Notes under the pieces: generated by a model
Database searches by the model: none
Told to the model about the DNA's origin: nothing
What the model saw: only the letters and a program-made list of their open reading frames with translations
Program-made: the position numbers and the translations under genes
Shown: piece by piece, positions 6,054 to 37,181 of the stretch
Layout of the letters: each line of letters begins with the position of its first letter
Numbering within the stretch: position 1 is the stretch's first letter
Origin: Platerodrilus igneus
Lineage: Eukaryota; Arthropoda; Insecta; Coleoptera; Lycidae
Length of the DNA stretch: 64,000 nucleotides
NCBI GenBank assembly: GCA_036346225.1
Contig: JARFIW010000588.1
Location: 3,663,501-3,727,500 of the forward strand
Direction: 5' to 3'

Positions 6054-6125
6054 TATATAAAAGGATTGTTCGTGTAGAAGTTATTATTTGTTAATTGTAC
6101 AGTTTAAAGAGACGATATAACAAAT
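6054..6125 (+). promoter_or_regulatory. TATA promoter and 5' leader of the 76-aa gene
   Basis: TATATAAAAGG lies at 6054-6064, about 62 bases before the ATG. The same arrangement, including a TATAAAAGG box and the AGTTTAAAGAG leader, is kept in front of the paralogue on the minus strand near 26650-26725. This suggests that the promoter was copied together with the gene. Confidence 0.6.
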
Positions 6126-6876: not shown

Positions 6877-7548
6877 TTATAAATTCGTATAATATGACCC
6901 AATATCACTATTACTGTATTTGCTTTTAATTACATCATGTGCGAGATTCTGTAAGACATCATTCCTATTATATCTTTCCATTGCGACATCTAACAGAAAC
7001 AGATCTATATTAGGAGTACCGTTTTTAGTTAGTTCTTTTAAACTATTAGCATGGTTGAGAACGATCTGAGATACCCCTAAAAACTGCTCTAAAGTTCCTT
7101 TGGTAAATATCATATAATTCTCATCAAATGTCACCATCTTCACTAAACAAATCTTATTTAAATAAAAGCGCAAGTTGTCGAATTTGCATATCTGATTTCG
7201 CATGCCAACTTCCATAGTGCGTATAATGTGTGGAAGATTTGATATAAACTTCCTAAATACGTTGAGGGATACATCAAGTACGCTCTGCGAAATGGTGTCA
7301 ACAAATCTAAAAATTATTTTGTAATCGTCGAACGGGTTCAGGCCTACAATTATGATTTTGGAAGAAGATTTTGTTATAGTGTATGGTTTTTCAAATAGTA
7401 ACTTGGTTCGTTCTAACTGAATTGCGGCGTTTATACGTTCTTTATGCGCTGCGGTCGATTGGTTTTCCAAATCCTTAATTTGTTCCCACTCATTGGCTGT
7501 AATTTTTAGTTCCTCCAGTAAAAACATTATCGCACACACTGTATGCAA
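6877..7548 (-). CDS. hypothetical 223-aa protein, likely Polinton-associated
   Basis: An uninterrupted ORF in a region where other frames are short. The Met at 7548 opens the frame, but the Met at 7527 (MFLLEELKITANEWEQI) may be the true start because the first residues look like leader. The composition is helical, with no transmembrane segment or catalytic motif I recognise. It lies between a small Polinton-type gene and a second unknown ORF that converges on a polymerase fragment. I infer membership in the same element. Function unknown. Confidence 0.55.
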   Translation of the reverse strand: MHTVCAIMFLLEELKITANEWEQIKDLENQSTAAHKERINAAIQLERTKLLFEKPYTITKSSSKIIIVGLNPFDDYKIIFRFVDTISQSVLDVSLNVFRKFISNLPHIIRTMEVGMRNQICKFDNLRFYLNKICLVKMVTFDENYMIFTKGTLEQFLGVSQIVLNHANSLKELTKNGTPNIDLFLLDVAMERYNRNDVLQNLAHDVIKSKYSNSDIGSYYTNL

Positions 7549-8043
7549 TACTTAAGATGTTCATTCTAGAAAAAATTATTGATTAACAGTTTTTGAATTA
7601 TACATGAAAATATTAATTTCTTCTACGTTTACAAAATTCAAACTAAGACTTACTCTTCTTTGTCGATAGTCCTCACACGAAATTTTCAAAGACGGAAAAT
7701 TCTGTATTACTATTAATTACACTATAAACGACTTTACGTTTTACAAAAATAAACTTAAAATGAACTTTTGGTATCATTTCCCCTGTATTTATGTACATAG
7801 AGAAAGTATAAGTATAATTTGTCCTTACATTAACCCAATTTAAATCAAATTATAGAATGTGTATTCCCGTATATTAACTAAAATTGTGGAAAGTACTTTT
7901 ATTAAATTAATAGTCAGACGTCATCGACAAAACAATGCAAGGCTAATGATCATACATTTCACTAAATTTATTTAGAAAATACGTCTTATTTTGAACTGCA
8001 TTTAAAATAGATTATCTAACCACTTTCTAGCCCCCCGTGCAGA

Positions 8044-8089
<46 letters not shown>

Positions 8090-8697
8090 CCTTTTGGTTT
8101 AATCATTTGTATGTGGATTCACTAATTGAAAATTTTAACAATTCTAGCTACTAATAAATATTTTTTGGAGTTTAACTCTATTATCGAGCTAAATCTAAAT
8201 AAAAATGCAGAGGTGTTTTACTGATAGGTTTTTGAATATTAATACAATATATACAGGTCTTTGTGGGAACTAATTTTAAAAAACGTGATAATTAATTTCA
8301 ATTCCCCCCAGAAAATTCTATACTAATTTTATAGGTTACACCATGGGTTTATCTCAAAGGACAGAGCAATACCGTTTAGAAATAGATTAAAGGTGAATTC
8401 TATACGGTGCTTGCAAAAGGTTGATCTGTAAATCAGTAAGGGGTCATTCGATTTGAAAAAAATTCCGAAGGATTTGAGAACCTCAGGAAAACACAATAAT
8501 AATTGAAATCTTACACGACAGTATATTAAAAATACTGCTAAGAGTAATTTTTTACAATAATTCTAAAAATGGTGTTGGTGGTTAAATACATACAGGTAAA
8601 ACCCACTATAAAACAATTATAAGCGTCACTTTTCCAGTCAAGACTAGCATATAATGCCAATTAACATAATAAAGAGCTGCGCACGCTCGACCATCGG
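7549..8697. other. intergenic spacer
   Basis: AT-rich sequence between two divergently placed ORFs. Apart from a TA microsatellite I see no gene or repeat. Confidence 0.6.
8048..8087. repeat. (TA)n microsatellite
   Basis: About 20 uninterrupted TA dinucleotides. Confidence 0.95.
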
Positions 8698-8776
8698 CAT
8701 AAAAGGCGAGGGAGCCATGTTCCAGTGCATTAGTCGTCAAAGTATCGTCGAGTTTGATTAAAATTACAAGTTAAAG
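8698..8776 (+). promoter_or_regulatory. TATA + Inr core promoter of the 275-aa gene
   Basis: CATAAAAGG at 8698-8706 is followed about 33 bases later by ATTAGTC (8729-8735), an arthropod initiator-like site. This is the usual TATA-to-start distance. The ATG follows at 8777, giving a leader of about 45 bases. Confidence 0.6.
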
Positions 8777-9604
8777 ATGGATTTTTCTTGTGTTGACGTT
8801 ACAAGTGATGTGCGAGCACCACAATTAAATATCAACCACCTAGTTGGTAAGACAACCTATAGGTTAGGCGAATTTTCTCCAAATTATCCCCACCATATAA
8901 TAGAAGTTGGTTTTGATTTATATGGTGGTCTTCAACCTGTCATCCAAGTTATTTGCTGTAGTGGTATGTGTGCTGATTCTACGATAACATTCTCTTACTT
9001 CGATTGGAAGAAATTGTGTACTTTTCAAGTGGAATTTCAAATTCACCAATTTGCTCAAGAATCAAAACAAGTCAGATTAAATGGTTTGACTACTGGAAAC
9101 GACGTTGTTGACATACAATTGGATCAAGATTTCAAATTCCAGCTGAGCACAGCCTTTAATAGAAGTATATGGCTGTTGAACAATTTTGAAAAAGAGAATT
9201 TATATAATATGGAGATTACGAAAGATCGGAATGTTATTGTGCTACCTGCGTACGAGTGCATCAAGCTATTAAATTTGCGAGAATTAATCTGCTTTAAAAT
9301 GGCTGAGCTGAGGTGTAGAAACTTTCAAGAATTTTACAAAAAATTTGTAGGTGATATAAAAAAAGTATGTGGAAATACGACGGAGGAAGAAAGGGTTCAA
9401 ACGTTATTAGAGGGAGAGAGCCGTGCCAGTATTTCTCTGTCTAATGATTGCAGCAATTTAAATTACTTGACGGTGTTGGAAATTATTAAATGTTACCCCA
9501 TCCAGTACGTAAAAGATGCAACTGCAAAGCAATTGCTTGCGCAAATGTTTAGAGATTTGGCTATCCCAGATTCGCCAGACTCTGGTTACCACAGCGGTTT
9601 ATAG
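8777..9604 (+). CDS. hypothetical 275-aa protein, likely Polinton/virus-derived
   Basis: The longest intact non-retroelement ORF in the left third. I do not recognise the family. The N-terminal half looks like beta-rich sequence (GLQPVIQVICCSGMCADSTI, then FSYFDWKKL). The C-terminal third is helical and ends in a Ser/Pro-rich tail (IPDSPDSGYHSGL). It has a good TATA/Inr promoter and is followed within 150 bases by a DNA polymerase B fragment on the same strand, so I infer that it belongs to the Polinton-like remnant. A virion or regulatory role is possible; nothing in the sequence decides. Confidence 0.62.
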   Translation: MDFSCVDVTSDVRAPQLNINHLVGKTTYRLGEFSPNYPHHIIEVGFDLYGGLQPVIQVICCSGMCADSTITFSYFDWKKLCTFQVEFQIHQFAQESKQVRLNGLTTGNDVVDIQLDQDFKFQLSTAFNRSIWLLNNFEKENLYNMEITKDRNVIVLPAYECIKLLNLRELICFKMAELRCRNFQEFYKKFVGDIKKVCGNTTEEERVQTLLEGESRASISLSNDCSNLNYLTVLEIIKCYPIQYVKDATAKQLLAQMFRDLAIPDSPDSGYHSGL

Positions 9605-9754
9605 ATGTTATCAATACATGTATGTATTTTATTAAAAACATATTTCTTGATAAAGTTTGTTTTTACATATTTGTATCGCCAACATTAGCAAAAATTATTA
9701 ATAGACGTATTAAACTATCTTGTTTTTATTTTTAGGTTTAAAGTGGTGTACCCC

Positions 9755-9990
9755 GCAGATAATAAATACAATACACCGCATGTAAACAAAAAAAGTTGTA
9801 GGGAAATTCAATGACAAATTTAATGTGGGTCTAGTATTAAAAGTTGTACCGCAGTAAGGCTAAGTCCGACTGTATTGTAAGTGAGAAAGATACGATTAAA
9901 AAGATTAAAGGGGTCTCACGAAGTGTAGTTAAGAATATTAATATAGATAGTTTTAAGGATATTGTACATTGCGGAAGATTTGGTTCTAGG
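9755..9990 (+). pseudogene. polymerase B C-terminal fragment
   Basis: Frame-shifted coding sequence that matches the C-terminus of the two larger polymerase copies. NKYNTPHVNKK parallels NKYKIPLVNKK, and KAKSDCIVSEKDTIKKIKG parallels KSYCIVSERDVIKKIK. It is followed by VKNINIDSFKDIVH. It lies directly after the 275-aa ORF and shows that 5.5-10 kb is a Polinton remnant. Confidence 0.8.
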
Positions 9991-12055: not shown

Positions 12056-12157
12056 CTCTTTCATCTAAATAATACGTATGCTTGGTATTAAGTAGAAAAT
12101 GCAATTAAATATTATACAATCGCTCTTATATAAATTGCGTTTTATACTCTTTTGAAA

Positions 12158-12163
12158 CCGCTC
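12158..12163. other. target-site duplication CCGCTC, left
   Basis: The hexamer CCGCTC directly precedes the AGTAGATATAATAGG terminus and is repeated exactly after the other terminus at 29188-29193. Six-bp duplications are the mark of Polinton/Maverick integration. Confidence 0.9.
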
Positions 12164-12905
12164 AGTAGATATAATAGGTTCCTTCTAGAACACTTCGATC
12201 CTCACTCGATCGATCCCCCCACCCTGCCTTCTATTTCGCAGTTGTTGAGGTGGTGTGCCTTGTAAATTCTGACGATCCTCAAGACACTTCTGGCGCACAT
12301 CGTTTTTCACTGGATCACCGCCCCTCCTACCCCTTTCTGCTTGCCTACTAGTTGTAGGGTGTTGAAGGGGAAGGGGTCTTATGACAATTCTATGACTCAT
12401 ATGAATTCTTCATTATGTTTATCGGCTGTGCGGGTGTCCTAATCAGCATTTTGCGGGCTAGAAAATTTTTAACGATTAGGATATATAGGCAGATATAATT
12501 AGCATCGTGAAATTACATAGGATTATTTAGCACTATTATTTTAATATTATAATTTTACTTTTTAACATATATCATTTTTAATATTAGACTAGCATAAGTG
12601 TGTTCTTAAATTTTAGAATTAAGTTGACTACATAATTGGACTTATATACATATGTCTGTAGAGACTTTATTAATAAATGAAATAAATGAAATTATGTTTA
12701 TCGGCTTTGCGGGTGCCCCATTTGGCATTTTGCGGTCTAGAAAAATTTTTAACGATCCTCATGACTCGTATGAATTCTTCATTATGTTTATCGGCTTTGC
12801 GGGTGCCCCATTCGGAATTTTGAGGTTTAGAAAAAATTTTAAAAAATTTTAAATCGAGCTAACATATGCACTCAAAATTATATGGCATAGGTATGGGTAA
12901 TCAAA
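12164..12905 (+). repeat. left terminal inverted repeat of Polinton
   Basis: Pairs with 28441-29187 with few differences for about 0.7 kb; pairing fades near 12870-12905. Three partial copies of a ~75-bp unit lie inside it (ATGTTTATCGGCT...GCGGGTG...TTTTGCGG), near 12416, 12693 and 12786. The apparent ORF 12185-12400 is present in both repeats and has no protein features. Confidence 0.9.
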
Positions 12906-13160
12906 ATTGTAAAGGGTAATTGTTTCCGTTCTCTGGGATCGGTGATTGAGCACAGAAATAAAAATAAACTGCAATATATATGGAAATAAAATTTATTAGA
13001 CAATCTATACACAGTAGTAATAAATTCTTTGTATATATCTATATTTACAATAATATTATCATTGTACATGTTTTAGGCTAAACATGTATATACATTGTGA
13101 CCCTAAAACAGTCACGTAATGTGTACAACTTAAATCCGAGCAATATATACAACTTATAAA
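12906..13160 (-). other. 3' untranslated region of polymerase gene
   Basis: AT-rich sequence between the polymerase stop and the inverted repeat. From about 12990 it aligns with the sequence after the polymerase copy at 59221-59391, which contains an AATAAA signal. Confidence 0.65.
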
Positions 13161-16100
13161 CTAAGTAAAATAAAAACTATTATCTATTTCACTATGGCCC
13201 CATGCATACGTTAAGGTCGTGTTAGGGATGACGAAACGCTTATCATCTGCGCCCGATAAACTAACCTTGCTAAGTAACAGCGTAAACAAATCATGTTTTT
13301 TGCTCCTAATAGTTCGCATCGAATGCACGAAGGCTCGGAAGTTACTGTTATGTGCTACGTCCTTAAAACTATCAACACTTATACCCTGCACAACACTACG
13401 CTTAACCCCTTTAATCTTTTTATTACATCCCTTTCGCTAACTATACAGTAACTCTTGGCGCGAGTACCCACAAACTCCAAAACTATCTCACCACCAAACT
13501 CATCCTTGAACTTTCCGGGCACTTTCTTGTTTACAAGTGGGATCTTATATTTATTGTCTGGGTGGTAGTCACTAGTGTCGAATAGGTCCAGGCAGGCATG
13601 AATATCACTGTACAAGTCTTCTGTTTCGACACTATACACGAGCGAATCGGTATCTGTATACAAAAGCGAAAGCTTAGACCCATACAGAGGCAACAGTTTT
13701 CATAGTGAAAGTCATAAATCAAGGTTTTGATAGGTCTAAAATCGAAAAGCCTGCATATATAGGTTTATTATAGGTGACTTTAACGCGGTCCATCTGTATG
13801 AGTGCTAAATTTTCGCCTAGTACCAGATTACAATTAAAGTTCGGACGGGTAATCAGGGTACTCGCACACAAGGTCTTCCGGTTACTCTCCCACCGAGTCA
13901 CAAGCTTCACGTCGACGCGCTTGTCTATATTTTCCATGGTTTTACCAAAGATGGCATTGTTCATGAGTTTGAAAAGTCCTTCTCAAAAGCGTTAGTGGCA
14001 CGAGTGCGAAGGTCCGTGTTCAACTCGATATAAGGCTTCAACCATGGAGACTGGTCGAACTCGAGAACCCGATGGATGGAGGTCAACACTAATCCATTCC
14101 GCACACACTGCTGTAGATTCCTGTAGTGGATAATGTAGCGGTGTTTGTCTTCTAAGGTGGCGAGGAGCTTCGGAGCCTTAGATGTGATATAAAGTGACGT
14201 CTTCATTTCCGGGCAGAACGGCAGGTCGTTGTGGAGATCATGTAAATGTGAAGGGTACTCCAAGTCGACCTCCAGAATGAATCCTTTCGCAGAGTCCTTG
14301 GGAACATTTAAGATGGTGGCCTGAGTTCGGCTATATCGGTAGAGAGCAACCATCGAAATCCTCTAAGAGGGAGAGCCTGGCTCATGGCCCAGCCATACAA
14401 GTTATTGGCATCGTAGTATGCCAAATACTTAGACGGAGCCGCAGGATCGTACTCTTCCATGTACTTGTTGTTGGCAGCAGCGTAACGCCCACTACACTGA
14501 GTCAGACCCCCTCTGATCCCAGACTTTATAAAATGGTACATGTCAATATCCGTGAGGAGCTCCAGTTTCACGCCGGTGTATTTTAACATAGCGTCCCAGG
14601 TTAATGAGGGCGCTGTCACATACTGGCACGGATCAAGGTCATAAGTCGACATGCACACCCGGCGAAAGTTCTCAAAGACGTCTGCTAACAACAGTACATC
14701 TGTCTTCAAATAGAGGTCGCTATATTCTCCGAGCGTGTTAAGACCAAAGTCGCGCCATACCTTTTGGGCCCTCTCGTATTCGTCGGTGGTAATGGATGTA
14801 GAGGCGAGATCATTGTAGAAGGCAGCCTGTGGTGGGAGAGCTGTTTCCTCCAATACTTCCATACTTTGTATGTAAGTGTATGGAAACACGCCTTTCTTGG
14901 TAACCAGTCGGAACCTGGAGTCCTCGGGAAGTGATGTCTGACCTCTACAAACTGGTCCTGGGTCAAATTCTTCGCCAGTGTATCCAACCCGGACGCCATA
15001 AATCGGAGAGAGTCGATAAACCGAAGTTGGACACAAGACTTGTCGGCAGTCTTTTCTTGTTTGTCTAAGACCACTTCTGTATCGGATAGTCGTACAGTTT
15101 TCGAAAACGAGATGAACCGCTCTTTATTGTTCGGTATAACGTTAATCTTTTCGTTATCATACCCCAGTTCTTTTATGATGAAATGAGCATCATATCCACT
15201 AAGGTTGTGAAACACCACTGGGATAAACTGCGGAACCCGATAGAGGATGTTACATTTGGAGTGTACAGGAAAGCGGTACGCACCATTCATGTGGTTGTGA
15301 TCCCGCACACGGTCTGTTCCAAGCGGTTTCTTGCATATTCCACAGTCATCGATAGTGTGGAACAAAAGTTCATTCTGGGCATCCAAAGGAATCATGGGCA
15401 CATTCGTCGTCAAGATCTTACCCAGACGTCTAGCTTCCTCTCTAAGTTTGATAACAAATTTACGTGCTGCGTCTGGACCCCGGTAGATCTCAAATTTATT
15501 GAGGAGTTGTCATAGCAGCATTTAATGTAATATGCCCAGCTATAAGGGGTATGCAGCTGGAGCGGTGTTGTAGATGACATGGAGGGTCGGGCTTTGCAAA
15601 ACTGTACGGCTGTAGGAGCGATTCAAAGTCAGCATAAATAACGAATGGGACCAGCATTTGTTTTGGATGCTCGAAAATTCCAAAACGTTGTTGAAGGCGG
15701 TGGGCATTTGGGTTACAACATGGTTACAGTCCTGCTCAGTATGCCTGATCAAGGCAGTCTCAGTCGGAAAAAGATTAAACATCCATCGCAGATCCATTTA
15801 TGTAAACGTTTTTTGATAACTGTTTACCGACCAGACGTCCCAAATCCTTGATCCAACAAAATGACTTTTCTTCATCCTGGATGTAGAGCAAGTTAACGTG
15901 CCGGGCTCTCCTGCGTTTAGTAAAATGTAGAGGACCAACAATAGACCTTCCTTCCACTCCGAATACATTGATACTCAGATCGTTCAAAGCCTCGAACTTG
16001 GCAATCTTGTCAAAGGCCATAGAACTCTATACCACCCATATTTAAGCAGCTTGAGTAATGGGGGTACTTGCTAAGACGATGGGGTTATGCTCGGCAGGAT

Positions 16101-17027
16101 ACAGCGCTGCTACAATGGAGTATGCAAAACAGGCTGCGTCTCGGTTTTAACATTCACCACCGCTTTTTAGTTTTTATCCAGCGTGGAAGGTCAATGTAAG
16201 AGGATCCCTAAGTGGCTGGTATTTGTTGATGTTTAGTTCTAAATGCAGGACACGTTGTAAGGCCCAACCGGACTGGTGATGTTCAAATTCTTGGGATTTA
16301 TCGAGCATCTCCCGAGAAAACGCTGTATACACTTTGTTCAAGTCGCTCGATCGGGTTATAATTTGATTCTTGGTATTGAAAGATTTAGTTGCTTCGGTAT
16401 CACCCAAGTCCATCTTTGTGTACATACCAAACACTTCCACATTAATTTTAAGGTCGTGTGGCCTCCAAGGTGTCCTGGATCAACTTTACAAAATGCTGCT
16501 TTTGTTCAAGTAAAGTCTCAATGTCTCTACAACCAGACATATTATTGATGCGGTAAGTTGCGATCCGGGAGCGGAAGGCAGACGATAACAGCTGTATCGC
16601 TTCTTGTTCGGGGTCTCTGGATTTGGTCTTATGCGCAGCACTACGTAAATGTCCAGGAACTGGCGTGAAGGAACGTCCATATTGCAATCCTTGCAATATC
16701 GTATGTCCTGTCGCTGGCGTTTTGGGGCAGGTGCAGCACGTGGTGGTGATGCTCCACGTTTGGCTGACATCGATGTAGAAGAAATAGTATTTCCGTGGAG
16801 AGCGTGCTGATGCCGGGTTAAATTAGCTCGACGCCCAAACCCCATATCACAAATGTCGCACACAAATAATACTGGTGCTGATAATCCAGTCGGTGGAGCT
16901 GAGGCTGTAACCTGACGTGGTGGTGGTCTAATGATATTATGAACCTCCTTTTGTGTCGGTTAAGGTTGCTCTGGATCGAGAAGTTTTTCTGGCACACATC
17001 GCAGACGAATACTTTGACGGATTCCAT
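13161..17027 (-). pseudogene. polB: protein-primed DNA polymerase B, Polinton type
   Basis: About 1289 codons from the ATG at 17027-17025 (MESVKVFVCDVCQKNFS) to the stop at 13161, in at least ten frame segments. Order: two C2H2-type zinc fingers (CDVCQKNFSIQSNLNRHKR; CDICDMGFGRRANLTRHQH); exonuclease motif I (YADFES, near 15640); a treble-clef/HNH-like motif (CGICKKPLG then DHNHMNGAYR, near 15310); exonuclease motif II (SGYDAHFII); polymerase motif A (YYDANNLYGW), motif B (NAIFGKTMENIDKR) and motif C (YTDTDS). Motifs A, B and C are all kept. The family copies linear element DNA from a protein primer. The many frameshifts make this a pseudogene. Zinc fingers joined to such a polymerase occur in several insect genomes. 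Confidence 0.92.
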
Positions 17028-17760
17028 TGTAATCTGCACAATAAAACTATGTTTATTACTCAGTTTAAAACACGTAAATTGCAATGTTTTACATGTTAAA
17101 AGAAACACTACTGAGGAAAATGGGCTGAGACTTCTTATAAATAGCAAGATGATCGTAAACAGGCAAATTAAAGTGCGTGCTCACAGGCAGTCAATATAAC
17201 TTCGGTCCAGGATTTGTTTGTTACTCAGTTTAAAACACGTAAACCACGAGGTTTTGCGATCGTAGAAGAAATACAACTGAGGAAAATGGGATGAGACCCT
17301 TATATTTATAGCCAGATGATCGTAAACAGGTGAATTACTGCGCATGCTCACAGGCATCCAATATAACATCGCCTTAGGATTCCTTTGAAATTTGTATAAT
17401 AAAATGATGTTTATTTATAGTTTAAAACACGTAAATTATGAGGTTTTGTAGTCGTAGAAGAAACACTATTGAGGAAAATTGGTTGAGACTCCTTAATAAA
17501 TAGCCAGATGAATGTAAGAAGGTAAATTAAAGCGCATGCTCACAGGCAACCGATATAACTTCGGCCCAGGATTCCTATGTGATCTGCACAATAAAACGAT
17601 GTTTATTACTCAGCTTAATAAACGCAGACAAATGTTTTCGCATTCGCGGAAAAGGAAAATGGGCTGAGGCCTCTTATAAATAGCCAGATGATCGGAAATA
17701 GGTAAATTAGAAAGAATGCGCACAGATCGCTAATAAAACGTCGCCCCAGTGGAGATGCTC
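17028..17760 (-). promoter_or_regulatory. tandem array of four core-promoter units upstream of polB
   Basis: Four copies (periods 165, 192 and 193 bp, anchored at 17061, 17226, 17418 and 17611) of a unit that contains CAGTTTAAAACACGTAAA, CTGAGGAAAATGG, a TATA box and GCGCATGCTCACAGGCA. On the minus strand unit 1 has TATTTATA (17143-17136) and TCAGT (17114-17110), placing the initiator A 31 bases after the start of the TATA box. Unit 2 has TATAAATATA and TCAGT with nearly the same spacing. Unit 3 has TCAAT instead, and unit 4 keeps TATA but has lost the initiator. The polB ATG falls at the downstream end of unit 1. Confidence 0.75.
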
Positions 17761-17896
17761 CTAAAGGAATGGAGCACAGTTACGTCTGGGGAACTTGCGA
17801 TACAACTAAAACAGAAAAATTAGCATTATATGAATAATAAATAGTCATTGCTATGTTTTCGGACCTTATTCGATATAGAACCATGGCGCCAACCGC
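17761..17896. other. spacer between promoter array and inverted repeat
   Basis: About 135 bases with no visible gene or repeat. Confidence 0.6.
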
Positions 17897-19010
17897 AAAC
17901 GACAGCATTGTTGCATTCTATAATTTATAATGAATACGACCGTGGGCTACTTCAGTTTTATTCTAGTATTTTTAATAGCTTGTAAATTTCGATATTGATA
18001 TTGGAATTGATGTGTAAATATAATATAATATAAGAATTAAAATTAAAACCAGTAGTTTACATGGAAACTGGGCATGTCATCAACCAGTTCAAAAATATAT
18101 TTTATAGGTATTTCAGTTATTAATGACATTGCACCAAATTCATTCCTATAATATATCATGATGCTAACCATCATGATCCTATTACGTAATACTAAAAACT
18201 AGTGCTAGCGGCGACTTAAGTTGCTGCTACAGTTTAGAAACCTATAAAACTTAATTCATATACAAATTTTCAAGCCACTGAATAAATAAGATGTAAATAA
18301 AATAGCCGAGCGCCTGCCTATTTGCAACATTTATTAAAACGTGTATGCCAAGGTCATATTAATATACACGTCTGGCGAATATTAAACACATAATTAAGCT
18401 AAAATGAATCTTTTAAAATAAGCATCGTCATCATCTGAAACAATGTTTTGTTAAAATCCGAGTATTTTACGTTAATGTATCAGCATATGTCATAAGGAAA
18501 TGCTCCGAGTGTAGACACCGGGTATTTATTTATAAGTAAAATATTTAATCATTACTATTATTGTGCTATTCATTAGCAGAAATCTGCACAAATCTGCATA
18601 AATATTACATCCAATGCTCGATTTGATTGCATAGAATTAACCTTGTACCTGTTTTTGTTTGAGGTCTGAAAGCATATAATTAAAATATTGTATCATCCGT
18701 TTTAAATAATTCAGGTATGTAAAATTTTTTAAAAATTCAATATTCGGATAATTTAAAGAACGAAATAATGCTTTAGATAATTAAATGGAGTATTTTCATT
18801 ATACAATACAATAATAATTATTACAATAGGTAAACCTATTTTGACTATTAAAAACAATGTCGATGTGTGAGCTCAAACGTTTAGTTACTTGATAAAAACT
18901 TCTCGGGGCATGATTCGAGCGATCAACGACCTACTTAAACGTGTTTATGCCTGCATGAATGTGCGTGACGTCATAAATATCATTGCTCATAAATATTTCT
19001 AGGATTAGTT
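17897..19010 (+). repeat. outer left arm of the inverted-repeat structure
   Basis: Inverted match to 23955-25092. Shared landmarks include GAATACGACCGTGGGCTACTT (as inverse), GAGCTCA..CATCGACATTG and the CRE-like palindrome TGACGTCA (18966-18973). Confidence 0.85.
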
Positions 19011-19029
19011 CGCTGTAAATTGCAGAAAT

Positions 19030-20440
19030 GACTGCATTCCATACGATACGATGATACAACTGTCTATAATTAACCGCAAAATACTAATTATAAAATGAGC
19101 TATATATTAAAACAGAGAAAAATTACTTTTACCTGACGTTGAGATAATCAAAGCGGTTGATAATTAATCAATTTATAAAACTGAATACCCTTCAAATCGA
19201 CCGATTTACATATATTTTAAATTCAGGCAATTAATTGTTTTATGATGTAACTATGTTGTCTTGACTCATCCAAAATTTCTCACGTCTGTGCGAATCTCGG
19301 TAAAATTAAAGGTCATCACAGCTTTTATTAGAACTCGAATAATTTCAGTGGATCCTAAAATACTAACAAAAAATCACTAAAAATCTATTAGAAACCATAA
19401 ATTATCCCGAAACTAAGCCGAATTTACGCTAAATTAAAATTAAATATGTAATTCATATATGCAACATTAAAAGCTCGTCAAAACGTGTTAACGATTATAT
19501 TAATATACACGTCTATCTAAAAAGCGAATGCTATACATATAATTAAGCTAAAATGTGTCTTTCAACACCGTAAAACTTGCAGAATAATCTGAAAATATGC
19601 TGTTAAATATGTATAGAGAGGTTTAATACTCACCTTCAACCACTTATCAAAACTGCATTGATAGTAAACAGTGAACCGGAAAAAAAAACTGGTCCGAGCG
19701 CACTTTACGTTATTATATTAGCATATCTCGTAACAATATGCCAGGAGTAAACACCTGAGGTCCATCTATATTCATACTACACCAACTATACCTATGTGCT
19801 ATTCTTTAACAGAAATCTGCGTTAACAGATCGAGACAAACGAAAAGAATGACACATAGGTATAGTTTGTGCGGTATGAATATAGATGGACCTCAGGTGTT
19901 TACTCCTGGCATATTGTTACGAGATATGCTAATATAATAATGTAAAGTGCGCTCGGACCAGTTTTTCCGGTTTTACTGTCCGTTAATCATAGCAGTTAGG
20001 TGAGTGACATATTTAATTTAATTATACGGAAATTCTGCATAATTTTCGATATATAATTTATGGTTTCTAATAGATTTTTAGTAATTTTTTGTTAATATTG
20101 TAGGATCCACTGAAATATTCGAGTTCTAATAAAAGCTATGATGACCTTTAATTTTACCGAGATTCGCACAGACGTGCCGAAGAATTTTGGATGAGTCAAG
20201 ACAACATAGTTACATCATAAAACAATTAATTGCCTGAATTTAAAATATATGTAAATCGGTCGATTTGAAGGGTATTCAGTTTTATAAATTGATTAATTAT
20301 CAACCGCTTTGATTATCTCAACGTCAGGTAAAAGTAATTTTTCTCTGTTTTAATATATAGCTCATTTTATAATTAGTATTTTGCGGTTAATTATAGAAAG
20401 ATGTATCATCGTATCGTATGGAATGCGGCATTTTTGTGAT
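19030..20440. repeat. inner palindrome, centre near 19825
   Basis: Sequence left of the centre (CCAGGAGTAAACACCTGAGG, ACTGGTCCGAGCGC) recurs inverted to the right within 60-120 bases, and pairing continues to about 20440. An unmatched segment near 19410-19640 sits in the left arm. Close, long palindromes of this kind are unstable in cloning. Confidence 0.85.
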
Positions 20441-21253
20441 TTGCATAAAGCAAAACGACACATAAATAGTACAGTACAATAAATAATTTGCATAAGAAAT
20501 CGATTTTATGAATAAACTATATTACAAAACCTGTATATCAGCCTACCTATTTGAAACCGCGTTATTAGAGAAACAATATATTTCCTGAATTAATTGCAAT
20601 TCAAGAACTGTATTACTCGGTTTATAATCCCGGAATTTAACAGTAATGTGATATAAAACGTTAATAATAAATTTTGGATTCAAACTAAACATTCTTATTG
20701 CTATCGAATCAGTAATTATTTTATAAAATTAGCTATATATATCAAACCAGCACTGATATTTTCGAGTTATATAGACAAATGTATTCTTCTTCCTATAAAT
20801 CGTGATTAATGGTCATTTCTACAATTAATAGAGAACGATACCTAGAAATATTTATGAGCTATGATATTTATGACGTCACGCATATTCATGCAAGCATAAA
20901 CACGTTTAAGTAGGTCGTTGATCGCTCGAATCATGCCCCCGAGAATTTTTTATCTCTAACGGGTCGATAATTATTTTGAAAATTCATAAATCGAATCAAT
21001 GTATAGATTTTTACGCTCTTATAATTGTTATACAAATTTCATGCTTGGACTTAAATTACAGCTTAATGTTTAAAGAACATCACACAAAACCCGTTTTAAT
21101 ATAATAAAATTTAAGGAAGCGCTATAAAGTTTACATATTGTTGAAATACAAATATTCTGCTATGATAACTAACAATCCTACTTGTTTAACTTTATTAGTG
21201 TTTAGGCTTAAAAATAGGGCAAAATTCGAGTAACCAGACGGTATATAGTATAT
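20441..21253. other. loop sequence, no gene
   Basis: AT-rich. It contains a fragment of the outer arm near 20820-20960 with the TGACGTCA site. No coding signal. Confidence 0.6.
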
Positions 21254-21374
21254 TGTGTCACAAGGACAAAGTGCTCATTAGCAGCCCGCAGCTATTAGAT
21301 GCCTGAGCGAGCGAAGCGAGCGAGGGCAGCTGATAGCTAAGGACTACTAATGCATTTTTGTCTGTGTGATACAC
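21254..21374. repeat. imperfect dyad next to recombinase gene
   Basis: TGTGTCACAAGGACAAAG...CTCATTAGCAG pairs with CTACTAATG...TTTGTCTGTGTGATACACA across a centre carrying GAGCGAGCGAAGCGAGCGAG. It lies about 320 bases past the last recognisable recombinase codons and may mark the end of the recombinase-bearing element. Confidence 0.65.
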
Positions 21375-21689
21375 AACTGTTTTCGTCTAACATTAAAGAA
21401 AAATAGAAAAAGCATAAAATAAAGAAGGTTAATAACATTTGACGTATTTATTTATTATAGTAATTGATATTAATTATCCCTTGACCATTATTATGGATAG
21501 TGATACCAGAATTTGTAGGCACTTGGTAAGTATTTGAGATGCTGGTAGCATGATGACATTTTTACGATAACGTTGACGGTCTATCTACATTAATTGGTAT
21601 TTCATTTATTTGGTTTAAGAGCAATTAACATGTGAATTGTATTATTTGTGCTGGTACTAGACAGTTGATGTTCTTGGTTTGTTAGAATT

Positions 21690-22652
21690 TTGAGAAATTT
21701 TAATCTTATTTGATAACCAATCACCTATATATCCTTAAGCAATTGCAGAAGAACACCATCCTCCAGGTATCTTAAGTGTTATTAAATTACTTCCAGCATT
21801 AGCTAATAGAGTTGCAGAACTACGGCGGAAGCATTGGCCTGTGTATGTACTAGGTTCAACCAATTTCAAAAGGTGGCTATTTTCCTTGGAATTTTGCTAA
21901 ATACATTTTCCCGATCGGCTGTATTGTACATTTATTATTTTGTAATAAATGAATAGGGAATTATGAGTAATGTGGGAGGTATAATAGAAACATATTTGTT
22001 GTATATTGTAAGTAGATTCAGTACATCAACTGTAGTGTTTGTGACTGTAAATGTTCTTGTAATATTATTTTGGTTTGTGGAACTGTAACAATCAATACGT
22101 GTCCACTAATATCTATGTGGTCAAGTTTCATATTCGTCAACTCATTTCGGCGGCAAGCTCCGTATACTCCCATAATAAGAGAAACTTGCAATGTAAAGTT
22201 AATCTAAAATTTACAATAATTTTATTTGTATACCTTTATCATTAGATATTCCTAATCATCTGCCGCCTTAAAATTGAATACATTTATTGTACTTGAATCA
22301 AAATTTTAGATTTTTGGGAAGGTAGTTTACAGAATGCTTTATGATGATCATCAAAATTAATATTTTCTTTGACTTTAAAAGTGCTTTTTAGCATTGAAAA
22401 TTTAGCCCATCGAGTAGTAGCATTTACACGTTTCGATCTTTCTGATAAATACGCAATTAAAACATTCTCTGTTACATTTTTAGCTTTTTATTTTTATTTT
22501 TTCTATTTATTAAATAATTCATAGTATTTTTGTACCGTTCTCTAGACTTTTAGGTAAAAGATTTAAAGAAGCATTGCTCACTTCTTCTTGCAACACCGGT
22601 GGAGTACTTGTAATTCCTTCATCGTCATCACAGTCTAAATTATCATTCATCT
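21690..22652 (-). pseudogene. tyrosine recombinase, Crypton-like, decayed
   Basis: From an ATG at about 22652 (MNDNLDCDDDEGITSTPP) the minus strand encodes the N-terminal DNA-binding part (ENVLIAYLSERSKRV, near 22470). It continues with GVYGACRRNELTNMKLDHID (22120-22175), which holds the first catalytic Arg, and then YTGQCFRRSSATLLANAG (21790-21850) and GGWCSSAIA-stop-GYIGD (21730-21770) with the nucleophile Tyr. This is the R...HxxR...H/W...Y layout of tyrosine recombinases, most like the Crypton-type genes of insects. The His of HxxR is Gln here. Several stops and shifts separate the pieces. Such enzymes move circular DNA by site-specific recombination. Confidence 0.78.
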
Positions 22653-23954
22653 TCACTAACAGTTATTCAGTTAGAATTACAATTATTCACTACTCATCTA
22701 TGATTATTTTATATTTTTATTTGAAACTCTTATTAACAATACACCGACGCCGAGGTTAAATGATAATTTATTTGAAACGTCAAAGCCGCAATATATGAAT
22801 CTCAATGATAGTCATAGGTGTCTAGATCGGGGGAAAAACCTATAAAATCATGCTATTATGAGTTTTGCGGCCCTAGAAACGAAAGATTTACTTTCAGTCA
22901 GATTTTTAGGGTAGATATGATTTATTTTCATATATGCTAGGCGAAAAACAAATTTTTATAAAATCAAGTTAAATCGGCGCGCTGAAGAAAATATATGTAT
23001 CGTTGTGATACTAACGATTTAATTTTCTAGTACGGTTTAGTGTGGTTCCAGATATTGACAAAGACGAACGCGATTTTGTATATGAATTATATATTTAATG
23101 CGCTACTTTTAGTAAAATTCTAAATAGTTTTTTGAGATAGTTTTAGGTTTCTAATTAATTTTAATAATTTTTGTTAATATCTTAGGATCCATTGAAAATA
23201 TTTGAACTCTATATAAAAGCAGCGCTGACCTCAATTTTACCGAGCTTCGCACAGACGTGATGTAGAATTTTGGATGAGTCATGATGTAATCATTTTATAA
23301 CTTTTGTGGGGTTCGAGACTAATCATAGTCGCCGGGTGATCGTGAGAGGTTAACACTCCTTCGACTGATATTTTTACTGTAATTAAACATCGTTCTAGGT
23401 AAGTCGAACATTTTTGGGCGTGTGTATGCTTGATTGGATATTTATATATTTTTTTCAGATATGTATAATGATTTCACTTTCTGTAAATTGCAGAAAATAG
23501 CCGCAATCTATACGATGGTACATCAGTAGTTTAATTGTCATACAGAAACACCTTACTTATTTAAATTTACTAGTGTTTGGGCTTAAACAACAGTGTGAAA
23601 TTCGATGAACCAGATGGCATGAACAAATTTTTATAAAATCTGCATTAATCGGTGCTCCGAAAAATATGTGCCGTTGTTATTCAATTTTCTGGTGCGGTTT
23701 CATGATACATAATTGTATCGTGGTACCAAAGACGCTCGCGAATGCAGCTCTCCATAAGGCAAATTAGTACGTATTATAAAAATCTTTTCTATTAGTGACC
23801 CATTTTTAAAAATCTGTAAATTATATTGGTTATTATGTGTTTGGATCTTTAAATTAAAGACCGACATTCTGTGAATACAAAGCAATTTTCATTTTAAAAT
23901 AGAACTTAGTAAAGCGCGAGAAGCCTCAAACGTGCATCCGGTTAATATATTTTA

Positions 23955-25092
23955 CAGCTAGAAATATTTATAAGCTATGATATTTATGACGTCACGCACA
24001 TTTATACAAGCATAGACATGTTTAAGTAGGCCGTTGACCACTCGAATCATGCCCCAGAAGTTTTTATCAAATAACTAATCGTTTGAGCTCACACATCGAC
24101 ATTGTTTTTAATAGTCAAAATAGGGTTACCTATTGTAACAATTATTATTGTATTGTATAATGAAAATACCTCATTTGATTATGTAAAGCATTATATCGTT
24201 CTTTAAATTGCACAAATATTGAATGTTTACAAATTTTACATACGTGAATTATGTAAAACGGATGATGCAATATTTTAATTAGTTGCTTTCAGACATCAAA
24301 CAAAAATAGCATTGGACGTAATATTTATGCAGATTTGTGCAGATTTCTGCTAATGAATAGCACAATAATAGTAATGGTTAAGCATTTTGCTCATAGATGG
24401 ATTCCTGGTGTTTACACTCGAGCATTTCCTTATGACATATGCTGATACATTAACGTAAAGTGCTCGGCCTTTCAGTTTACGAATCGAGTTTTGTGAAGTC
24501 GCTCTAGGTAAGTAAACTAATTTTTGTGGCCAGATTTTAACAGCACATTGTTTCAGATGATGACGATGCTTATTTTAAAAGACTTATTTTAGCATAATTA
24601 TGTGTTTAGTATTCGCCAGACGTGTATATTAATATGACCGTTGCATACACGTTTTAATAAATGTTGCAAATAGGCAGGCGCTCGGCTATTTTATTTACAT
24701 CTTATTTATTCAGTAGCATGAAAATTTGTATATGAATTAAGTTTTACAGGTTTATAAACTGTAGCAGCAACTTAAGTCGCCGCTAGCACTAGTTTTTAGT
24801 ATTACGTAATAGGATTATGATTGGTTAGCATCATGATATATTATAGGAATGAATTTGGTGCAATGTCTTTAATAACTGAAATACCTATAAAATCTATTTT
24901 TTGAACTGGTTGGTGACATGCCCAGTTTCCATGTAAACTACTGGTTTTAATTTTTAATTCTTATATTATATTATATTTACACATCAATTCCAATATCAAT
25001 ATCAAAATTTACAAACTATTAAAAATACTAGAATAAAACTGAAGTAGCCCACGGTCGTATTCATTATAAATTATAGAATGCTGTCGTTTATT
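23955..25092 (-). repeat. outer right arm of the inverted-repeat structure
   Basis: Inverse of 17897-19010. The match runs from GCTAGAAATATTTAT at the inner side to ATGCTGTCGTTT at the outer end, with scattered substitutions and small indels. Confidence 0.85.
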
Positions 25093-25419
25093 ATCCCTTC
25101 CCTCCCTTCTGCTTACAATATTACTAATTCATTTTACCTAATAATTTGCATCATAACAAAACAATCGCATTTATTCATTCTGTTATTGGCTACGCATAAT
25201 TGCTTTGAGAGTCCATAATTCTATACAGGCTAGCACAACAGGCATCTTATCCATCGTGTATATGTAACTGCATGTTTTGTTAATATCAACTTAATAGCTA
25301 TAATTCATTTATAAAGGTGTCAAAAAATATTTACTATGTTGCTTTGATCTTTGTGCGCATGGTAGACCATTGCACACGCCTCTGACTAAAGCCGGGTCCA
25401 CGGTGCTTGCGGCATGGTT
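25093..25419. other. Polinton spacer
   Basis: No gene or repeat is recognisable here. Confidence 0.55.
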
Positions 25420-25534
25420 CCAATTCAACATCAAAAGCTCAGCGAATAGGCTATGAGGTAAGTGTTATTGCACCGTGTTACCTTGCGCCCAAATATCATA
25501 ACAATAAGTAAACTCGCTTGTTAACAATAGCATC
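25420..25534 (+). other. conserved block shared with 57302-57416
   Basis: About 115 bases run from AAAAGCTCA(G/C)CGAATAGGC to AACAATAGCATCA and match the right-hand Polinton remnant closely. Both can be read as the end of a protein with ITPCYLAPKYHDNK-stop (here IAPCYLAPKYHNNK). The rest of the protein is not visible upstream of this copy. Confidence 0.6.
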
Positions 25535-25696
25535 ATGGATATAAAGCTACTGGAAAATGGTTTGGGGTTTAAACTGGTGGTTGGCCATATTTATACGACA
25601 GATACCACAATGTGGAGTGTATCGGCATTGGATGATCCTAATCCTGCTTACAAACCAGGATGTCATCCATTAAAATGTCAGGTATATATAGTATAA
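25535..25696 (+). CDS. 53-aa ORF, uncertain
   Basis: Starts MDIKLLENGLGFKL directly after the conserved block and ends at TAA 25694-25696. CAG|GTATAT near its end could be a splice donor, so it may be a first exon. TATAAAAAG at 25693-25701 follows immediately. No family recognised. Confidence 0.3.
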   Translation: MDIKLLENGLGFKLVVGHIYTTDTTMWSVSALDDPNPAYKPGCHPLKCQVYIV

Positions 25697-26149
25697 AAAG
25701 CGCTGCCTGGTGGCTATAAAGAACCGTCGTACCCCACCCCTAGGCTTTATATTGCAATATGCTATTGTGATTAACTGTAGTAAGTTACTTAGTAATGTGA
25801 CAATTTGGATATATATGGGACTGTTGGATCATAGGTTAGAGTAACATCGGGTACGATTAGAATATCACAATGTATTGGCGACTTAGATTGCAATCGATTG
25901 AGCAACTATTGATCGAGCGTAGCCCTATAGTATCCGTTACGATGACCTTAGCGCTGTATTCGCAAAAGTGATGTAAAACGACATTTCATTATGAGCGTAT
26001 TATCAAAACATTATTCAACTTTATACAACTTTATTTTTACAAAATACAATGCAGATACAAATTATATAGATATCCAGTTATTGGCTATCCTTTGGAATCT
26101 TTTCGGTAGTCTAGCGTTCCACCCTATTGGATGTATAAGGAAGCATTTT
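25697..26149. other. spacer, no supported gene
   Basis: A 79-codon ORF at 25991-26230 overlaps this region but has no family resemblance and partly opposes the Q/H-rich repeat. I see no other signal. Confidence 0.5.
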
Positions 26150-26353
26150 TCTTATCCAATTAATATTTTGCTCCTGCCCATTATAATATTAGAGACGGCA
26201 AAGCTGATGTTGTGGGCGTTGGTGCTGTAATTGTTTAATGGTTTCATGAGGTTGGTAAAGTTGATTATATTGTTGATATTATCGATGTTGTTGATGTTAT
26301 CGATGTTGTTGATGTTGTTGATACTGTTGATGTTGTAAATTCTCATCATTCAT
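26150..26353 (-). pseudogene. Q/H-rich repeat ORF, decayed
   Basis: From ATG 26353 the minus strand reads MNDENLQHQQYQQHQQHR, then stops alternate with more Gln/His. It is built from CAACAACAT-type repeats. A similar ATG context follows the 76-aa gene in the left remnant near 6429, so it may be a real small gene of this family or repeat expansion in its 3' region. Confidence 0.4.
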
Positions 26354-26390
26354 TTCTTATGGCAGTAATTGAGACAGTTAAATTTTTATC

Positions 26391-26650
26391 TTAAAACTTA
26401 GAATTTAAAAGATATTCCATCTGAATATCTGCCAACAGTTTTATAAATCCCATCTCCTCGATTATTTCCATAAAATCATCCAAATCTTCGGGTAATACTA
26501 ACACAGCAGTACAGTGCTGTATTGCTTCCTCGTATGACTGGCACATAAGACATTTTGTCCTTCTATCGAAAACCGTTGCCCGCATTCCGCCTTTTTTACT
26601 CGTAGAGCATTGCGAAATCTTCGAATAACCTTCCCAAAGTCTTTATACAT
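26391..26650 (-). pseudogene. paralogue of the 76-aa Cys-containing protein, frameshifted
   Basis: Starts at ATG 26650-26648 with the same opening as the gene at 6126. A one-base loss near 26550 (AAAATGTC for AAAAATGTC) breaks the frame before CLMCQSYEEAIQHC. The original stop has mutated, so the C-terminus is 11 residues longer. A TATAAAAGG box lies about 70 bases upstream. Confidence 0.7.
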
Positions 26651-26730
26651 ATTTGTTTAATCACCTCTTTAAACTGTATAATCGATAAATTATAACTTCT
26701 ATGCCAACAGTCCTTTTATATGAGCTACTC
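26651..26730 (-). promoter_or_regulatory. TATA promoter of the 76-aa paralogue
   Basis: CATATAAAAGG (minus strand, 26722-26712) and the AGTTTAAAGAGGT leader match the promoter at 6054-6125. Confidence 0.55.
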
Positions 26731-26789
26731 TTGTTCGGATATGCCCCGATTGTGCTCGATTTGTGTTATGCTTATTTCTATTATACAAC

Positions 26790-27262
26790 CCTCTTCTCTT
26801 AATTCTTCTATTATAGATACCTCTCTAGTGCTAGGATGACCTCTATTATTTAAGGTTATGTCACTGATTTCTGTATCAATTTCAATATACTTTTTCCCGA
26901 ACTATGCGTATCAGATTGGGGATTATACTTAACTCCATAAACTGACGTGTATATATTTTCGTCTTCAGTTTTAACCAGCACGTTCGTATACTAACGATGT
27001 ACAGGCTCGTCGTTAACTGGTAACTTAATCTTTTTTTAAAAGTTCGCCTTTGTTTTCAACTTTAATCTCCTTCATAGGTTTTAGTATTTTCCGCTATTCC
27101 TTATGACTGGGAAGCGGTGATTTGCAAAGGCTCATGCAATGTTTATGAGCTTCTTTGAAATCTGGTTGTGAAGTAGTATATCTTTTGCGTTCCACAAACT
27201 TCCTTCGTACGGCATCCTGCATAAAATGATGCTTATGTTGCTTACAATAAAATCTTTAGCGG
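26790..27262 (-). pseudogene. decayed Polinton DUF8207-like gene (copy B)
   Basis: Follows the ATPase gene on the same strand. It is readable in pieces: RRKFVERKRYTTSQ, YGVKYNPQSDTHSSGKK and SIIEELREEG near the end. The middle and end parallel YGIRFNPDSNG and SIIEELRE of the gene at 30167. Copy A is at 5540-5905. Several frameshifts and stops. The role of this family in Polintons is not known to me. Confidence 0.6.
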
Positions 27263-27289
27263 CCGTCATCATGAAACTTGAGATTGGGG

Positions 27290-28000
27290 CTAACCATTAA
27301 CGGCTTCTTCTATATTTATATACTCATCGAAATTTTTCTATATCGCCCTTACCCAAATCAAAATCTTTTACAATAGTAATAAAACTATATTTCGAGTCAC
27401 CACCATTCCAGCATCGCTGACAAATTTCTTTAAACTTTATAAAGGGCATATCACTACCAACATGATTTAGAAAGATATGCCAAAGATTTGCATCATCCTG
27501 TTTCCATATTGAAATAACATTAGCGTTATCTCTAAGTCCGTGCTTTACTGTGCTGGCATACGTTTGGCATAAGTAAAAGGAATCGATACTCTTATGTCTA
27601 CCACAGGAGAAAAACCGTGCGATCTTGTTTTGTTCGTTTGCATGAATATCATCAAAGACAATAATTGAATCTTCTTTGCATCCTCTGGCCTAATCAAATC
27701 TTTATAATTCCCAAATTCGTAGTAACCAATATCCGTCTTTAAGGGTTCAAATAACTTTCTTAACAGTTCATACTTTGGCTGATATAAACTTTTAGAAAAC
27801 ACATAGACGTTTTGGAATGCAAGTCCATTCTCATGTAAAATGAGAGATATTAGAGTTGGTTTTCCACAACTCGATGGTCCCGCAAATATTGCCCTTATAT
27901 TGGATGGGAACAAAGGTCCATGTTTACCAACTTCCTTTGCACTAGAAGTGGTATATGTATCAAAGTTTTGTATGGGTATTTTAACTTTTGTCGTGCAGCT
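27290..28000 (-). pseudogene. Polinton packaging ATPase (FtsK/A32-like)
   Basis: The open piece 27545-27913 starts in HGPLFPSNIRAIFAGPSSCG; GPSSCGKPT is the Walker A loop (the usual Ser/Thr after GK is preceded by Pro). A frameshift near 27665 leads to the Walker B segment DSIIVFDDI and to FYLCQTYAS. WKQDDANLWHIFLNHV and SFITIVKDFD follow. Another shift precedes FDEYINIEEAVNG and the stop at 27292-27290. This ATPase family pumps DNA into virions. At least two frameshifts make it inactive. The N-terminal limit is approximate. Confidence 0.86.
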
Positions 28001-28167
28001 TCTACCGGGATATTTGATTCTCTACTTTTATTTCGAACACCAAGTTTATAGAGGTGATCCCGTAGCGTTGTTCTAGGCACATTATACAACCTACTAGCTT
28101 TACGCGTATTTAACACACCTTTCCGAATTTCACTAATTGCTTTCTCTAAAGATTGCTTGGTGTACAT
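27895..28167 (-). CDS. pipsqueak-type HTH protein, 90 codons
   Basis: MYTKQSLEKAISEIRKGVLN followed by TRKASRLYNVPRTTLRDHLY (residues 1-41) is a typical HTH_psq fold: a helix, then the KASRLYNVPRTTL turn-helix. Psq domains bind DNA in insect regulators and transposases. The ORF runs into the ATPase gene in another frame, so it may be the start of a longer frameshifted protein or a separate upstream gene. Confidence 0.65.
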   Translation of the reverse strand: MYTKQSLEKAISEIRKGVLNTRKASRLYNVPRTTLRDHLYKLGVRNKSRESNIPVEAARQKLKYPYKTLIHIPLLVQRKLVNMDLCSHPI

Positions 28168-28229
28168 CTTTCAAATATACTGTTAAGACTGATTCAAAAT
28201 TTCAAAAAGCAGTCTTTTATACTAAATAG

Positions 28230-28345
28230 TCCATCCCTGCCCGCCCGTCCGTCCGTCCATCCACCCGTCCGCCCACCAGCCCGTCCGCCCGTTCATCCGC
28301 ATTCGTTTGCCCGCCCGCCCGTGCAACCGGTCCGCCCGCCCATAC
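28230..28345. repeat. GC-rich (CCGT/CCGC)n simple repeat
   Basis: Irregular CCGTCCGT, CCGCCCGT and CCATCCACC tetranucleotides in an otherwise AT-rich region. The proline/arginine-rich ORF across it is a by-product. Confidence 0.9.
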
Positions 28346-28437
28346 GGAACGTTGCGCTGCAGCCAACAAGTACATGGACGAAGAGTACGATCTCATTACA
28401 CCGTGTAAGTATTTGACCTACTACGATGCCAATAACT
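28345..28437 (+). pseudogene. polymerase B internal fragment, mirrored
   Basis: The plus strand reads AANKYMDEEYDL and KYLTYYDANN, matching the motif A region of the larger copies (AANNKYMEEYD...YLAYYDANNLYGW). It abuts the right inverted repeat and points toward it, as the main polymerase gene points toward the left repeat. Confidence 0.75.
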
Positions 28438-28440
28438 TTT

Positions 28441-29187
28441 CCCCATATCTATGTTATATAATTTTGAATTGATTTTTAAACCCCAGGACATATGTTCACT
28501 CAATTTAAAATTTTTAAAATTTTTCTAAACCTCAAAATTCCGAATGGGGCACCCGCAAAGCCGATAAACATAATGAAGAATTCATACGAGTCATGAGGAT
28601 CGTTAAAATTTTTCTAGACCGCAAAATGCCAAATGGGGCACCCGCAAAGCCGATAAACATAATTTCATTTATTTCATTTATTAATAAAGTCTCTACAGAC
28701 ATATGTATATAAGTCCAATTATGTAGTCAACTTAATTCTAAAATTTAAGAACACACTTATGCTAGTCTAATATTAAAATGATATATGTTAAAAGTAAAAT
28801 TATAATATTAAAATAATAGTGCTAAATAATCCTATGTAATTTCACGATGCTAATTATATCTGCCTATATCCTAATCGTTAAAAATTTTCTAGCCCGCAAA
28901 ATGCTGATTAGGACACCCGCACAGCCGATAAACATAATGAAGAATTCATATGAGTCGTAAGAATTGTCATAAGACCCCTTCCCCTTCAACACCCTACAAC
29001 TAGTAGGCAAGCAGAAAGGGGTAGGAGGGGCAGGTGATCCAGTGAAAACGATGTGCGCCAGAAGTGTCTTGAGGATCGTCAGAATTTACAAGGCACACCA
29101 CCTCAACAACTGCGAAATAGAAGGCAGGGTGGGGGGATCGATCGAGTGAGGATCGAAGTGTTCTAGAAGGAACCTATTATATCTACT
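28441..29187 (-). repeat. right terminal inverted repeat of Polinton
   Basis: Inverse of 12164-12905 with a few substitutions and one extra ~20-bp segment near 28470. Ends CCTATTATATCTACT. Confidence 0.9.
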
Positions 29188-29193
29188 CCGCTC
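29188..29193. other. target-site duplication CCGCTC, right
   Basis: Exact repeat of 12158-12163, directly after the right terminus. Confidence 0.9.
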
Positions 29194-37177: not shown

Positions 37178-37181
37178 CGCG

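Follow-up and report, generated by a model that had tools for sequence, protein, structure and literature searches.

Foldback transposons possess long inverted arms with internal repeats. Vertebrate Mavericks (Polintons), as described in the part of a published account consulted here (PMC8097293), have 6-bp target duplications and the end motif 5'-(AGT)2//(ACT)2-3'. The Cryptons of insects include the CryptonI elements, and animal Cryptons are reported, in the portions consulted of Kojima and Jurka (2011; PMC3212892), to be without terminal repeats; the same portions describe MarCry-1_FO, a composite of a Mariner and a Crypton. The locus considered here lies in a stretch of 64,000 nucleotides from the beetle Platerodrilus igneus (Lycidae; assembly GCA_036346225.1, contig JARFIW010000588.1, written C588:3663501-3727500), which is called the window below and is numbered from its first base; in it, a Polinton-like element encloses a 7.2-kb palindrome with a broken tyrosine recombinase (YR) gene between its arms.

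The element resembles Polintons in its 6-bp target duplications, its terminal inverted repeats (TIRs) of about 0.7 kb starting with AGTAGA, its length of 17 kb, and its DNA polymerase B (polB) gene matched by PF03175, and its ends, AGTAGA//TCTACT, agree at 5 of 6 bases with the vertebrate motif as given in the consulted part of PMC8097293. It differs from Polintons in that the palindrome with its Crypton fills the middle, and in that neither integrase nor capsid genes were recognised with Pfam in the frames scanned (18 of the 51 frames of at least 60 amino acids outside the palindrome). The palindrome has long inverted arms with internal repeats, as foldback transposons do, but its arm ends are without a visible target duplication and it has been seen so far only inside the Polinton. 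The YR is related to insect proteins of about 350-400 amino acids with a single Phage_integrase (YR) domain, and no target duplication of its insertion is seen at the unoccupied site, both of which recall CryptonI; the copy differs in being dead and in ending on one side in a hairpin of about 130 bp, whereas animal Cryptons lack terminal repeats according to the consulted portions of PMC3212892. As in MarCry-1_FO, to the extent that those portions describe it, a Crypton is carried by a transposon whose ends and target duplications reveal the enzyme that moves the composite, but in the present case a Polinton does the carrying, with a palindrome in between and a dead YR.

With a probability of roughly 0.9, the locus is a nest of three layers, in which a Polinton contains a nested palindrome that contains a dead Crypton. 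The outermost layer would be a probably non-autonomous family of 17-kb Polintons, whose copies integrate through their TIR ends and duplicate 6 bp of the target, the integrase and probably the capsid and polymerase as well being presumably supplied in trans by relatives. The second layer would be the nested palindrome, set between the polB and ATPase regions with edges that carry no visible target duplication, and the third a 1.7-kb Crypton-like element in one of the palindrome's repeats. The YR would have been inactive before the package was amplified, and thus would have had no part in its spread, and the block at approximately 16.7-28.5 kb would have been joined to three or more backbones of TIR and polB, for which recombination is the simplest route. 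The kinds of component are known, and their combination and the apparent swapping of backbones would be new. Among the titles and the openings of abstracts consulted, no account was evident of a Polinton with palindrome or Crypton nesting, nor of a Crypton with a palindrome or hairpin, or a foldback with a tyrosine recombinase, in the present arrangement.

The mobile unit

A search of the 2.71-Gb genome with the left arm of the palindrome, in which 40 of 889 first-look candidates were scored, gives at least 40 matches over the full length of the arm, that of the window among them, with 98-100% identity; 20 of the 39 scored matches other than the window were read, and these with the window are the 21 copies referred to below. 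Similarity crosses both palindrome edges (17897 and 25092) in all 20, which are 97.5-99.2% identical to the window. The match to the window begins at 16568-16710 and extends to at least 26451 in 18 of the 20, four of these having a 257-bp gap inside the palindrome, and the four copies compared more widely are all colinear with the window over 12.6-16.7 kb and 26.4-28.7 kb. The ends are found at an inverted pair revealed by self-comparison (12148-12868 versus 29205-28489, 97.2% identical), in which the tips, at 12164 and 29187, read 5'-AGTAGATATAATAGG and are both flanked by CCGCTC. The Polinton of the window is thus 12164-29187 (17,024 bp), with a left TIR at 12164-12868 (plus strand), a right TIR at 28489-29187 (minus strand), and target-site duplications at 12158-12163 and 29188-29193. 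The predicted ends of 10 further copies were examined, and nine keep both tips, flanked in every case by a perfect duplication of 6 bp (TGCTCA, CACACC, AGCAAC, CAGTTA, ATCGAT, ATGGAG, AAAACT, AATTAT and TCCTTA); these and the CCGCTC of the window are ten mutually different duplications. The tenth copy (L045/L046) has lost its right tip.

In the window, the duplications are 5.7 kb and 4.1 kb away from the edges of the palindrome. Because similarity continues beyond both arms and the Polinton tips carry the 6-bp duplications, the mobile unit is the Polinton and not the arms with their recombinase. The preliminary description, made from the letters of the window, had treated 17897-25092 as the bounds of a candidate element whose arms and recombinase might move together with identical ends and a target duplication; the bounds stand as ends of the palindrome and fail as ends of a mobile unit, and joint movement of that kind is contradicted by the similarity that passes both arms in 20 of 20 copies.

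The polB gene (13164-16959, minus strand) is broken into several frames, and its upstream end weakly matches a C2H2 zinc finger. Its stretch 14311-15123 matches PF03175 (E 3.4e-11, above the Pfam cut-off), by which it would be a polymerase of the protein-primed type; the zf-C2H2 match is just under the cut-off. Upstream of polB is a tandem repeat with a copy spacing of 165-192 bp (17019-17749, plus strand; repeat families D1, D2, D4 and D6). On the other side of the palindrome is a possible broken A32-like packaging ATPase (27327-28021, minus strand), in which 27548-28021 has no Pfam match and contains what we take, by eye, to be a Walker-A-like stretch, and a fragment of a Psq-type helix-turn-helix is located at 27898-28170 (E 2e-8). 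The Polinton is probably non-autonomous, because an integrase was not found in the 18 of 51 frames scanned, and may be mobilised in trans; integrase and capsid genes may be missing from such a member.

Two Polinton relics accompany the element in the window. An older relic (57310-59627) retains polB and part of a TIR, its segment 59394-57413 being 91.6% identical to 12989-14960 by self-comparison, and a short piece resembling the right flank adjoins its polB in the opposite relative orientation; the named organisms with relatives of the polB of a sister relic in the window are nearly all insects, with one spider (among 120 of 6031 matches listed). A second Polinton-like relic (5545-9959), in reverse orientation, is 80-85% identical to the ATPase-side flank 26333-27177 and has frames of 224 and 280 amino acids with no Pfam match at E 0.01.

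The palindrome and its dead recombinase

The palindrome spans 7.2 kb (17897-25092) between the polB and ATPase regions. Its left outer arm (17897-19032, plus strand) and right outer arm (23958-25092, minus strand) pair over 17913-19002 and 25081-23958, closely in the distal part (17913-18458 versus 25081-24533, 549 bp, 96.2%) and less so in the proximal part (18458-19002 versus 24467-23958, 545 bp, 85.1%). Within the outer arms is an inner palindrome (18891-19966 versus 20954-19684, 88-93% overall), of which the left part and hairpin tip (19014-19966, plus strand; tip spacer 19808-19842) pair with 20445-20001 and with themselves at the tip, and of which the right arm (20001-20954, plus strand) is in part directly repeated at 23083-23284 and 23958-24068. 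The inner pieces are 91.6% (18891-19032/20954-20812), 92.6% (19014-19455/20445-20001) and 87.7% (19684-19966 with itself) identical, and the direct repeats 77% (20001-20201/23083-23284) and 89% (20842-20954/23958-24068). The top inverted match scores 885 bits, versus at most 44.6 bits in 20 shuffles that permuted blocks of 2 bases. Self-comparison confirms the outer arms of about 1.1 kb, the second inner palindrome and the direct repeats of arm pieces that had been described beforehand. The same structure is common to all 20 copies from other places; no target duplication belonging to the palindrome itself is seen where the sequence was read by eye at 17897 and 25092.

The YR gene (22662-21687 approximately, minus strand; 21687-22662 located by tblastn with the proteins P0001-P0004) lies between the arms, as had been proposed from the letters, but what is present is a broken gene with its pieces in different frames. 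In all 21 copies, the histidine of the HxxR motif is replaced by glutamine and a stop lies two codons before the presumed catalytic tyrosine, the catalytic residues having been placed by alignment to P0001 and by the general motif; the tetrad R-H-R-Y is accordingly incomplete in these copies, and further frameshifts vary between copies. An intact YR of the element's own family was not found in any of the 20 copies read. Since the lesions are identical in 21 of 21 copies, the YR most simply died before the family expanded, and probably did so. When read in a single frame with X at the stops, it matches tyrosine recombinases of insects and of unnamed sources, among them P0001 from Leptinotarsa (E 2.5e-18, PF00589); searches of Pfam with three broken YR fragments, and of PDB with one, gave nothing useful. 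A search with P0001 gives 395 proteins at E <=1e-10, itself included, and the named organisms are all insects among the 120 listed. The putative placement of the YR in CryptonI is based on these insect relatives. The beetle's own genome has at least 201 matches to P0001 (116 of 7291 first-look candidates scored), some of them open frames without stops, and four related YR loci, read over 5 kb in three cases and over 4 kb in the other, have no long arms and no match to the palindrome.

The limits of the Crypton-like insertion (21245-22946, minus strand, approximately 1.7 kb) are given by a paralogous unoccupied site (23554-23700, plus strand) elsewhere in the palindrome: 21179-21244 aligns to 23554-23620 (score 66 versus a maximum of 36.5 in 500 shuffles), and 22947-23038 aligns to 23622-23700 (score 55.5 versus a maximum of 30.5 in 500 shuffles). 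As the two flanks match two adjacent stretches, about 1.7 kb would have been inserted there separately; no target duplication of this insertion is visible at the paralogous unoccupied site. The size agrees with that of a Crypton family of the same genome delimited from three copies (L057 1676-3415, 1,740 bp), one of which, L060, has about 0.85 kb extra inside. A further candidate for an unoccupied-site copy, 20446-20811, was rejected (score 25, shuffles up to 32).

Exchange within and between copies

Among the 21 copies, mean pairwise mismatch rises from 0.33% (right flank) through 0.39% (left arm), 0.55% (YR) and 0.65% (right arm) to 1.84% in the inner palindrome. Arm-to-arm exchange probably accounts for part of the excess in the inner palindrome, to which misaligned inverted or duplicated stretches (L028, L022) also add. 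Over 3,404 paired positions, 60 of 231 distinct minority alleles are equal to the base of the partner arm, versus approximately 5 expected at random; the corresponding counts are 54 of 197 in gap-free columns and 19 of 26 in the window alone. These copy patterns suggest that the arms exchange sequence by gene conversion. The spacer at the tip of the palindrome is inverted in one of the 20 copies (L028, in the stretch matching window 19804-19846), from which it appears that the spacer can flip.

The tips of the Polinton divide the 10 copies typed into five of type A (as in the window), four of type B and one of type C, with L045 typed by its left tip only. Four copies were compared with the window. 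For the three of type B or C, divergence from it is 3.8-5.3% in the left TIR bin, 1.2-4.6% across polB and 4.2-5.0% in the right TIR bin, but 0-1.4% over 16.7-28.6 kb, except in bin 19164-19663, where all four copies are 2.8-3.0% from the window; for the fourth, of type A, it is 0-0.4% in the left TIR and in polB, and 0.8% in the right TIR bin. Mismatch in polB is 2.8-3.0% between A and either B or C, 1.2-1.4% between B and C, and 0.2-0.4% within A or within B, and the two TIRs of one copy are 0.2-0.7% apart, versus 4-6% between types (nine copies and the window). A nearly identical cargo block of about 11.8 kb is therefore present on at least three backbones of TIR and polB. The low divergence of the cargo beside the high divergence of TIRs and polB would be explained by recombination between Polinton subfamilies followed by homogenisation of both TIRs, and suggests that such recombination joined the cargo to its backbones; protein-primed replication may be the means by which the TIRs are homogenised.

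Competing explanations and implications

The preliminary description had proposed, as alternatives, a recombinase element of a new type, distinguished by its long inverted arms, or a Crypton that had landed in a foldback inside a Polinton. That the YR moves the whole 7.2-kb inverted-repeat unit would agree with the presence of its gene between the arms in all 20 copies from other places, but is very improbable and is rejected, because none of the 21 copies has a live YR and the target duplications lie at the Polinton ends; the unoccupied site also marks the YR as a separate 1.7-kb insertion, and the genome has related YR genes at many further sites. Long palindromes are a familiar cause of assembly error, and an artefact had been named beforehand as a possible refutation, but since all 20 copies read elsewhere share the structure, with substitutions particular to each copy and target duplications that differ, this explanation has an even slighter chance and is likewise rejected. 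What survives of the two proposals is the outline of the latter, given the Polinton ends with their 6-bp duplications, the palindrome inside them, and the 1.7-kb insertion at an unoccupied site. Several points weigh against the three-layer nest: the match of the ATPase region 27327-27689 to Pox_A32 (E 0.0014) is under the Pfam cut-off, and no integrase was found in the 18 frames scanned; the copies were picked from the best matches, such that older or differently placed copies are under-represented; two copies (L020, L026) are arranged differently left of approximately 17.0-17.4 kb, yet both cross the palindrome edges; the unoccupied site is a diverged paralogue, which fixes the ends of the Crypton only to within a few bases; and misalignment may produce some of the signal of arm conversion.

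How the palindrome itself arose can be assigned with less assurance. There is about an even chance that it was formed without transposition, as an inverted duplication that template switching produced within the Polinton while DNA was being replicated or repaired, in keeping with its edges, which lack a target duplication, with the nesting of the same pieces in inverted and direct copies, and with the flipped tip and the arm gene conversion, which point to local exchange; on the other hand, self-comparison finds nothing similar to the arms elsewhere in the Polinton, and so no source sequence for them. A somewhat smaller chance, short of even, belongs to the possibility that the palindrome was once an independent transposon of the foldback type that entered an ancestral Polinton, bringing the Crypton or receiving it later. 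Its long inverted arms with subrepeats fit this origin, as does a fragment resembling the inner palindrome (56092-56336, 85-87%) about 1 kb from the older Polinton relic, but no target duplication is visible at 17897 and 25092, and the 20 copies read, all of them best matches, include none outside a Polinton. The same fragment may indicate that palindrome and Polinton were already associated before the recent burst.

The 3' end of the Crypton, within the nest of Polinton, palindrome and Crypton, is an imperfect hairpin palindrome in its predicted fold (21246-21380, minus strand). A 257-bp deletion in four of the 20 copies (L013, L014, L016, L025) stops near the centre of this hairpin, and its tip (21288-21325) is missing from L011 and L017. 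A hairpin of about 130 bp is found at the 3' end of both the window insertion and the L057-type Crypton, and more generally the Crypton-like YR elements of the genome have a hairpin of 120-140 bp at one end (L057 1676-3415, with L058 and L060 of the same family; L059 1633-3314; window 21245-22946), with z-scores of -13.4 for L057, -11.1 for L059 and -7.2 for the window, each calculated from RNA energies against 200 mononucleotide shuffles. In L057, L058 and L060 the hairpin lies within the aligned element ends, and in the window immediately within the limit that the unoccupied site defines; in L059, a single copy of another family, it lies on the opposite side of the gene, beside short inverted ends of 52 bp (77%), those of L057 being TTTTTTCTACGACTG/CAGTCGTAGAAAAA as read by eye. 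This layout could be explained by a circle that opens to one side or the other of a folded recombination site, and it is conceivable, though unlikely, that insect Crypton recombinases act on such a folded hairpin in the manner of integron integrases on attC (compare the consulted part of PMC11641012).

Other elements occupy the right half of the window. A possible long terminal repeat (LTR) element (37181-55969) has direct repeats of 577 bp (98.1% identical by self-comparison), with one frame for a gypsy-type pol and one for an envelope of the Baculo_F type (PF12259, E 8.5e-29). The long frame at 46583-50863 includes a second stretch of RVT_1, where a further retroelement seems to have entered the integrase, and nested within the possible LTR element are direct repeats of 285 bp (40045-46055, 97.9%) that enclose long retroelement-like frames on the minus strand. 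At the end of the window (62765-64000) is an array of repeats of about 84 bp with a frame that resembles C2H2 zinc fingers by eye.

A striking "element" can thus be mere cargo, with the target duplications lying well outside it. The hairpins at the ends of Cryptons may make the recombination site of animal Cryptons testable. The family described here is suited to the study of how Polinton backbones, comprising both TIRs and polB, swap around a common cargo, and of how long palindromes in a mobile element fare through exchange between their arms.

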